From Cristatella mucedo (Eukaryota; Bryozoa; Phylactolaemata; Cristatellidae): 64,000 nt of DNA. The notes beneath the pieces are model-generated. The model was not told the origin of the DNA. It did no database searches and saw only the letters and a program-made list of their open reading frames with translations. The position numbers and the translations under genes were made by a program. The stretch spans positions 1 through 64,000 of the forward strand of contig WPIO01000228.1 in the NCBI GenBank assembly GCA_009760855.2. The letters run 5' to 3'. Positions 6,401 through 63,995 of this stretch are shown piece by piece; position 1 is the stretch's first letter; each line of letters begins with the position of its first letter.

Positions 6401-9400
6401 TTTAAGCTGTGCATGCTGGATTCAGTCAATCCAATGCTGGAGAACACAGAAAAAGTTCACGATCGAGCATAGGCATGAAACGAGCAGGCGAAAGACTCAA
6501 GATATTACTGCAAATGATGCAAACTAGCAAATGATGTATCAGTAGAGTATCTATGTCTATGAACAGTTTACTTCCGACAATATCTCAATACAGCCGTGCC
6601 GACTAAGTAGTCATAGGCTGGACACATCTGTGGCGTACTCAAAGCCCATTCGGCTGGGAATAAGCTACGCTGGGTATATTGGCTGATTAACTTGCTGTAG
6701 ATGTTTACGGGGCAATGCATAGAGCAGCTGTGACCTGGTGCTTGATCCCATAGTACGACACTAGAAAACCTTAAAATGCTATTGATACTCACATGACAGC
6801 AACATTCACCACCACATGCAGCACAATGGCACAGAACTGTAGATGACATACCGGTATGTCAAAGATGCAAATTAAGACTATCATGGCATTCTACTATGAC
6901 AAATAAATGAAAGCAAACCTGAATTATCTTCGTGTGCAGTCCTTGACCCATTTCGACACCACCATGAGCTATTATAACAGAGCCGTCCGTGTATGCCTGC
7001 ACTAGTGCTCCTGCCTGGTGAAAAAACTGTGGACCTAGGCCGAGTGAAAATTTGGTTGGTACAATAGCCAGGCCTCTCTTCTTCCACCGATTTTGCCTAG
7101 ATATAGACAGCATTGATTGCATGCATAAATCGGCTGCAGGCAATGAGACTGAGTCGGCCGGGGATGCACATTAAGATTTTCGGCACACGATTGACGACCT
7201 ACCTATTGAACAGATCAACGGCTGCTTGCCGTTCGGCAAGCTTACTTTGGGCAGTGCAATCTTGCCAGCAGGCAGACACACGGCAGTTTGTCAGCACCTG
7301 CTTGTAAGGGGTCGAGTCACCCTCTCTGTAGAAGTTCTTTTCTCTGACCTTTTAAAGAGAGCACAAGATATGCTCAAGGTCAGACTATGACAGTATGGCA
7401 GGCTGAGAGCAACTTCCTCAATTCCAAAATTCTCTTCAAGACCAAATAACAAAATACGCACAGGGTGATTGAGGGCTAACAACTTCAAGATATGACTACT
7501 CGCCACCAATCCACACCCCACTAGTGCTCAGAGCCCAGCCCTTCGGGCCGGACAGTTAGGAACTTAAACGCCAATGCAGTCTCGAAATGAAGCATTTTAC
7601 AGTATCCCAAAATAGTTCATCAGATAAGGTTAAGGCCCCTGGTAAGAACAAGTCTACGAAATGACCTACTAATTAATGAATATCTTGTCAAGGATGCACA
7701 CATGTCAGCCATGTCAGCCAGCAGCTGTCCAAACTACCCGAGGTCACAGTGACAGTCACGTGACAGTGCTAGGTCACAGCCATTCTGGCACTGACTGCTA
7801 CCTGCAGATCCAGGTGCTTGAGAGGCAAGCTGCTAGTCTGGAGCACTGAAAAAGAAATCTGCTAGGTAACATTCAAGATATTATTGGGATTTGGGAGGCA
7901 AATAAAGATGCAAGTACATATTTATACACTTCAGGGGCTACCACGTTGTTAAATTACACAGCTAGAAGTCAGGCCAAATCTCGGATGCGAAGCCAAATCG
8001 GGCAGTCACAGCCGTCAACTTTTTTTGCCAGCAATGCATTTCTTATCAGAGTGGCAGACGGATGCAACTGACATCAAAAGCTAAAGAGGCAGTCGCCAAC
8101 GGGTATGTCCAGCAAATTTGTGAACTAAGGACCAAGAGAAAAGGGGGAGGAGTAACGTGCTGTGTTTGGCTCCAGCTGCAACTATAACTGGTCGGCCAAT
8201 AGGAGGCCAAGATTCATTACTCCTATTAAGGGGAAAGTCAAGAAAATACCTAGAAAATTTGTCAAACAATCAGCTATGTGTTTATGGTACCTTTCAAAAG
8301 GCCATTATGTTAGAGCCGGGATCGGAAGTTCTAAAAACTTCCGCATGAAAGAAAAAATTCGTTATGCAAACCATGCATTACCCGGATGCAAACCGGGACC
8401 AACAAATCTACAAATAAAAAATTTACCGATCTCTGCATCACATGTGACTTGTATCCCAACTTTCAGAACCTAGGTGATCGCTATAGATGCTTGAAGCTTG
8501 TTAAGGCGCATTCTAGTGACTTTAATACAGCTTCATTTCCAGGGTCAGTTGGAGCCTTGTAAATTTCATAACTCGGCTAATACTTCACGCATCAGAATGA
8601 AATTTGAAATGCGAGTTCAGCTCTGCTTTTTTTTAGTCTAGCCTGGAATATTTTTCATTTCGGTTGGATACATTTGGCTATATACGTCATCAAACGTCCT
8701 GGAGGTTTATTTTCCGTAATCGTGGACATATAGAACCCAATGTATCAAACCGAAATCATAAATATTAAAGCCTAGGGTTAAACAAGCAGAGCTGAACTCG
8801 CATTTCAAATTTCACTCCGACATGTGAAATATTGGCCGAGTTATTTAATTTAAAAGGCACTACAAACTCTAGAAATGAAGCTGTATAAAAGTCACAAGTA
8901 TGCACCTCAACAAGTTTCAAGCATATTTATCGATCTACCAAGATTCGACAAGTTGGGATAAATAAATAAATCCTAGCTGATTAAACAGCCTCTTTTTGTA
9001 TAGCGACAGAACAGCCTTGACGGCTATCACCACCGCTTGCAGTGGCGATATAGAATCGCCCACCGCAGGAATCGAACCCACGACCTCGGGACCGAGGTCG
9101 TGAAAGCAACCGCCTTACCTAGTGTGCCACAAGTCGCATATGATGCAGAGATTGGTACATTTTTTATTTGTAGATTTGCTGCTTCCGGTTTACATCCGGG
9201 TTAGACGTGGTGGGCATAACTGATTTTTTTTCACGTGGAAGTCGTCAGAACTTCCGATCCCAGTTCTAACATATTTGTCTTTCGACAGGTACCATAAACA
9301 CATATTTGATCGTCGGACACATTGTATGAGTATTTTCCTGACATTCCCCCTTAAGAAATGGAGCCTTCTTGTAAAAAACTTTCCAAAAACACTCCAACGA

Positions 9401-63995: not shown

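Follow-up and report, generated by a model that had tools for sequence, protein, structure and literature searches.

A stretch of 64,000 nucleotides from the bryozoan Cristatella mucedo (positions 1 to 64,000, forward strand, of contig WPIO01000228.1, assembly GCA_009760855.2; hereafter the window) carries two genes of the xanthine dehydrogenase/aldehyde oxidase (XDH/AOX) family, A and B, each split into many exons; they lie head-to-tail on the minus strand and were delineated by tblastn with human XDH and by spliced alignment. Both encode a cysteine in place of Arg880, and, judging from their sequences, A and B are rather likely to be AOX-type molybdo-flavoenzyme hydroxylases derived from an XDH-type ancestor; they probably oxidise aldehydes, not xanthine. 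Residues are numbered as in bovine xanthine oxidoreductase (XOR), the bovine number being the human one minus 1. In XOR, Arg881 (human) lies at the 2-keto group of xanthine and Glu803 at N7/C6, and Glu1262 is the catalytic base (PMC8615798, PMC3509653).

Substrate pocket and catalytic core

Two exons of each gene encode the substituted pocket. In gene A, the first (11616-11807, minus strand) encodes Cys880 (TGT, 11798-11796), Arg884 (11786-11784), Met911 (11705-11703) and Phe914 (11696-11694), and the second (6919-7096, minus strand) encodes Ser1006, Leu1009-Gly1010 (CTA GGT, 7038-7033), His1015 and Gln1040. The matching exons of gene B (62746-62937 and 62106-62283, minus strand) encode Cys880 (TGT, 62928-62926), Arg884 (62916-62914), Met911 (62835-62833) and Met914 (62826-62824), followed by Pro1006, Tyr1009-Gly1010 (TAC GGG, 62225-62220), His1015 and Gln1040. 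In place of F911-R-G-F914, A accordingly has MRGF (starting at 11705) and B has MRGM (starting at 62835). Each paralogue keeps one aromatic side of the Phe914/Phe1009 sandwich: Phe914 with Leu1009 in A, Met914 with Tyr1009 in B. Thr1010 is Gly in both, as in fly XDH, and this change alone is therefore not diagnostic of AOX. A CO-dehydrogenase-like Mo/Cu site built on Cys880 was also considered; the cysteine of that enzyme aligns near 913, not 880. The hydrogen-bond network of Arg880, Gly1006-Ser1008 and Asn1015 described in PMC3864932 is altered throughout, to Cys, Ser-Leu-Gly and His in A and to Cys, Pro-Ile-Thr and His in B.

The two pocket exons display 55-64% identity to human XDH (tblastn) and align to it without gaps in both tblastn and spliced alignment, on which ground a register shift behind the substitutions was rejected. 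In A and B alike, Cys880 is encoded by codon 4 of its exon, and its assignment hence depends on the chosen acceptor; the boundary is, however, identical in the two genes, and the tblastn match spans it. A preliminary description of this DNA had claimed Cys880 in both genes, Leu-Gly (A) and Tyr-Gly (B) at 1009-1010, and a Phe914 kept in A and replaced by Met in B, all from an ungapped alignment to XDH, and the codons agree with it on each point. The remodelling of the purine pocket that it had proposed proves wider: His884 (to Arg), Phe911 (to Met), the Gly1006/Asn1015 network and two residues of the NAD+ site of A, none of them named in that description, have changed as well.

The latter two lie in exons of the FAD domain of A identified by spliced alignment (minus strand). 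In the exon at 24327-24439, Tyr393 is replaced by Pro (FFTGPSRT), and in that at 23870-24054, Asp429-Asp430 are replaced by Asn-Ser, with Arg427 retained (RWRENSRSI). Tyr393 is the NAD+-binding tyrosine, the roles of Tyr393 and Asp429 being those given in PMC3509653. At these two positions human AOX1 has Cys and Asn, both XDH residues being lost there as in A.

The core residues are kept: all eight FeS-ligand cysteines, Gln767 and Glu802 in A, Gln1040 in both genes, and Glu1261 in B. As the preliminary description had also seen, Glu802 is present in A (GGAFGGKE, exon 12950-13107, minus strand, tblastn) and the catalytic Glu1261 in B (GIGEPP, exon 56100-56252, minus strand, tblastn and spliced alignment). 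These statements cover the models within the window; position 802 of B, position 1261 of A, and the FeS and FAD domains and NAD+ site of B lie outside them.

Predicted activity, alternatives and origin

Of the states that have been assayed, the one nearest to gene A is the R310M mutant of Rhodobacter capsulatus XDH, equivalent to Arg880Met with the Glu kept. As reported in PMC2671166, its xanthine activity is undetectable and its kcat/Km for hypoxanthine is 0.14 vs 84.8, a drop of ~600-fold, while its kcat for benzaldehyde is 211 vs 33 per minute and it turns over acetaldehyde, for which wild-type activity is undetectable. Human XOR mutants at Glu803 or Arg881 likewise display AOX activity (PMC3509653). 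Since aldehyde-oxidising XDH mutants share the key loss seen in A and B, an AOX-type activity is the simplest expectation. The new substrate suggested in the preliminary description is upheld as to the changed pocket and weakened as to novelty, because mutants with this same loss become aldehyde oxidisers, an activity that evolution has already reached. In mouse AOX3 the counterpart of His884 in the alignment, Lys889, takes part in substrate binding (PMC3864932).

In the mechanism proposed, Glu1261 would still activate the Mo-OH group to attack an aldehyde or, with less certainty, a carbon of a ring. Lacking Arg880, the enzymes would not turn over xanthine and would act only poorly on hypoxanthine; Arg884 would help to hold the substrate, and the electrons of A would pass to O2, not NAD+. 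A common ancestor would have lost Arg880, and tandem duplication would then have let both pockets diverge towards different substrates.

The changes coincide largely with those of AOX1. When the comparison is restricted to positions invariant in three eukaryotic XDHs, the literature-named pocket positions are enriched in changes in B (6/7 vs 34/187 elsewhere, Fisher 3e-4) and in human AOX1 (6/8 vs 64/276, 0.003), and weakly in A (4/7 vs 40/197, 0.04). Among columns invariant across three eukaryotic and 13/14 bacterial XDHs, 9 of 66 are altered in A, all nine lying within the 12 changed in AOX1 (hypergeometric 5.9e-9), and 10 of 72 in B, nine of these within the 13 of AOX1 (7.9e-8). The AOX resemblance that had been noticed for A thus stands, and B shares it. 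As a control, with fly XDH excluded from the invariance rule, fly XDH itself has 3 of 11 changes in common with AOX1 (p 0.30); A has 3 in common with fly XDH (0.11) and B has 5 (0.005), and so some overlap occurs without AOX. In the bacterial relatives Arg880, Glu802, His884 and Phe914 are retained in 14/14, and Phe1009-Thr1010 in 13/13 having data, a set biased to canonical enzymes because its loci were found by XDH-like patterns. In viral contigs, 111 stretches fit the search pattern and none encodes a relative.

Several observations weigh against an AOX-type assignment. The Moco (molybdenum cofactor) domain of A is identical to that of human XDH at 282/543 positions and to that of human AOX1 at 247/543, and among the shared changed columns only 3 (A) and 4 (B) match the letter of AOX1. 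Gene A retains Trp336, Phe337 and Arg427, all absent from AOX1, which makes its FAD site only half AOX-like, and B has Met914 where vertebrate AOX keep Phe914. Of the features that mark XDH, A has the eight FeS cysteines, the FAD and Moco domains and Glu802; Arg880 and the Phe914/Phe1009 sandwich are lost in both genes, and Tyr393/Asp429 in A, and on these grounds neither is classed as XDH. In PMC5746545, eukaryotic AOX are recognised by the absence of Arg880, by a Glu802 (numbered Glu803) reported as never conserved, and by a Phe1009-Thr1010 pair that is not conserved. A and B share the first and the last of these features, whereas A retains Glu802 and is for that reason not filed as AOX. Reverse exchanges in mouse AOX1 are reported to give no purine activity (PMC2671166), so pocket residues alone do not set specificity, and the same source describes R310M as lacking phthalazine activity, which speaks against the heterocycle part of the expected range and favours aldehydes over rings. 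The synonymous distance between A and B is saturated (dN 0.22, dS 2.08, NG86; 199/286 residues identical); as dN is far below dS, constraint at the protein level is likely.

The last point against is the integrity of gene A. In the exon at 14047-14201 (minus strand, spliced alignment) the frame is lost just past the Gln767 codon: the FYLE motif that follows falls in a different frame, and the exon, taken literally, runs into a stop 72 codons from its start. The claim that the Moco motifs are intact therefore holds for the residues present where covered and fails for this exon. Either an error in the assembly or a recent loss could explain the break. Decay, in which pocket residues drifted after one or both genes lost their function, would account for it, and is improbable: this is the sole frame break that the 26-exon model of A required, the 10 exons of B needed none, no further stop was met in either, catalytic and cofactor residues are retained wherever covered, dN is far below dS, and the changed columns match those of AOX1 instead of scattering.

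Retention of a purine substrate is somewhat easier to envisage, and still unlikely. The enzymes would then have narrowed their specificity in the manner of the Aspergillus HxA mutants, hydroxylating hypoxanthine or another purine without a 2-keto group, and not xanthine. Glu802 is indeed retained in A, and R310M has a trace of hypoxanthine activity left; hxA mutations at the Arg880 position are reported to abolish acceptance of xanthine and to confer allopurinol resistance, and hxA-linked allopurinol-resistant mutants to grow, if less well, on hypoxanthine (PMC5746545). Here, however, the aromatic sandwich and the 880/1006-1008/1015 network are altered too, and the hypoxanthine efficiency of R310M is down by the ~600-fold given above. 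Of a similarly low probability are distinct N-heterocycle hydroxylases, acting on nicotinate-like compounds or a metabolite of the lineage and not on aldehydes. The fungal XDH paralogue HxnS became a nicotinate hydroxylase (PMC5746545), Arg884 could conceivably bind a carboxylate, and the pockets of A and B are unlike each other; conversely, HxnS has Arg880, Phe914, Phe1009 and an inserted Ala, unlike A and B, the phthalazine activity of R310M is lost, and no sequence feature indicates any given ring. A further reading, as doubtful as these two, takes A and B for a separate line of animal molybdo-flavoenzymes in which XDH turned oxidase-like along another sequence of steps, losing Arg880 and gaining Arg884 with Glu802 in place, its copies keeping opposite sides of the sandwich after duplication, B with a Cys880/Met911/Met914 pocket, and each using a substrate class that known XDH and AOX do not use.

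With aldehyde oxidation as the preferred activity, A and B are predicted to function like AOX and are not proven members of AOX; for their origin, the candidates are independent conversion and an early branch of AOX, which the clade tests do not separate. Duplication of XDH is the established source of AOX (PMC10385300). In an unrooted tree of six proteins, A, B and fly XDH are split from the others at 96/94, the row of B being just 34% filled. The Moco-domain tree with bacterial outgroups places A and B with fly XDH at 63/82; when the pocket columns are removed and 10 of the 14 bacterial rows used, this grouping is at 73/78, with human XDH joined to AOX1 at 85/91. The first of these Moco-domain trees keeps A and B with the animal proteins and separates them from the single plant XDH included (100/99). 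A clade of A, B and human AOX1 is not rejected (p-AU, approximately unbiased test, 0.34 and 0.24), and the p-AU of a clade with human XDH is 0.08. Outside the pocket, A shares 14 pattern columns with AOX1, 10 with human XDH and 8 with fly XDH, and B shares 9, 3 and 5, respectively; these counts lean to AOX1, yet its long branch can yield the same. The top NCBIfam family for both is TIGR02969, aldehyde oxidase, at 428 and 531 bits vs a cut-off of 1912.3, the comparison being one of partial proteins with a full-length model.

Gene models and surrounding elements

The window edges truncate both genes: B enters at the right edge, its 5' part lying outside, and A exits at the left edge, its 3' part lying outside. 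The spliced aligner, written for this purpose, permits only GT/GC-AG introns, and every intron chosen is GT-AG. Gene B (56100-63998, minus strand) is modelled by tblastn and spliced alignment as 10 exons covering human XDH 848-1312, a part of the Moco domain with Pfam matches to MoCoBD_1 and MoCoBD_2. By spliced alignment, these exons lie at 63998-63909, 62937-62746, 62520-62375, 62283-62106, 61467-61339, 60985-60858, 59146-59050, 57532-57400, 57205-57084 and 56252-56100; the last exon and last codons of B were looked for in the window and not placed. Gene A (3371-47437, minus strand) is modelled from the same two methods as 26 exons covering human XDH 14-1135, comprising the FeS and FAD domains and most of the Moco domain, with Pfam matches to Fer2_2, FAD_binding_5, CO_deh_flav_C, Ald_Xan_dh_C, MoCoBD_1 and MoCoBD_2. 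In the spliced alignment its outermost modelled exons are 47437-47377, which is weak, and 3499-3371; the short exons 34997-34932 and 34696-34631 are uncertain too, and exon 1 was looked for in the window and not found. Four middle exons of the region shared by A and B are equal in length (192, 146, 178 and 129 bases) while their introns are of very different lengths, which fits an older tandem duplication.

Similar open reading frame (ORF) fragments with the look of one long interspersed element (LINE) type occur at 20132-21112 (minus), 38947-40925 (plus), 45856-46320 (minus) and 50119-52885 (plus), three of them within introns of A and the last upstream of its first modelled exon. RVT_1 matches were obtained at 39510-40415 and 51411-52175 and an endonuclease domain at 50119-51420, the remaining fragments being judged by eye. 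Together with the introns, the reverse-transcriptase ORFs mark the DNA as eukaryotic. A CT/GA-type microsatellite, with Ser-Leu repeats in its ORF, is found at 23300-23809 (minus), directly upstream of the A coding exon 23588-23402. At 24610-24681 (minus) a tRNA-like feature was called whose anticodon is incomplete, possibly a tRNA-derived repeat. Rfam returned nothing at gathering thresholds in the window.

Comparison with known systems

In searches of open-licence literature, no description was found of the combination Cys880, Arg884 and Glu802 or of the Met911/Met914 pocket of B, which may be common and simply undescribed. The order of the steps from XDH to AOX is hard to discern in finished enzymes, and a natural protein without Arg880 but with Glu802, beside a paralogue keeping the opposite side of the sandwich, would offer a natural setting in which to probe what these residues do. 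When such genes are annotated, similarity alone does not justify the label xanthine dehydrogenase.

The animal XDHs (human, fly) resemble A and B in domain order, in the FeS cysteines and Glu802 (A), in Glu1261 (B) and in a Moco-domain identity of 48-54%. They differ in Arg880, His884 and Phe1009, lost in both genes, in Phe914, lost in B, and in Tyr393 and Asp429, lost in A. The Aspergillus HxnS protein and the HxA mutants at the Arg880 position likewise represent an XDH paralogue or mutant with an altered substrate range, but HxnS, as described in PMC5746545, keeps Arg880, Phe914 and Phe1009 and inserts an Ala. Drosophila AOX1 (PDB 7px0) belongs to the same family and is far more diverged: in the printed alignment its residue 802 is Ala, and its Arg880 and FRGFGG regions are unlike those of A and B.

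Vertebrate AOX, namely human AOX1 and mouse AOX3, share with A and B the absence of Arg880, a basic residue at 884, a changed 1006-1008/1015 network and largely the same changed XDH-invariant columns. With A in particular they share the Leu-Gly pair at 1009-1010 (human AOX1) and the loss of Tyr393 and Asp429. Conversely, they possess Met or Tyr at 880 and Lys at 884 instead of Cys and Arg; Met911 sets both A and B apart from them, as do Glu802 and Trp336/Phe337/Arg427 in the case of A, and overall A and B are nearer to XDH than to vertebrate AOX. The change from XDH to AOX is itself already known, and the AOX-like pocket of these two genes looks like a new twist on that known route.
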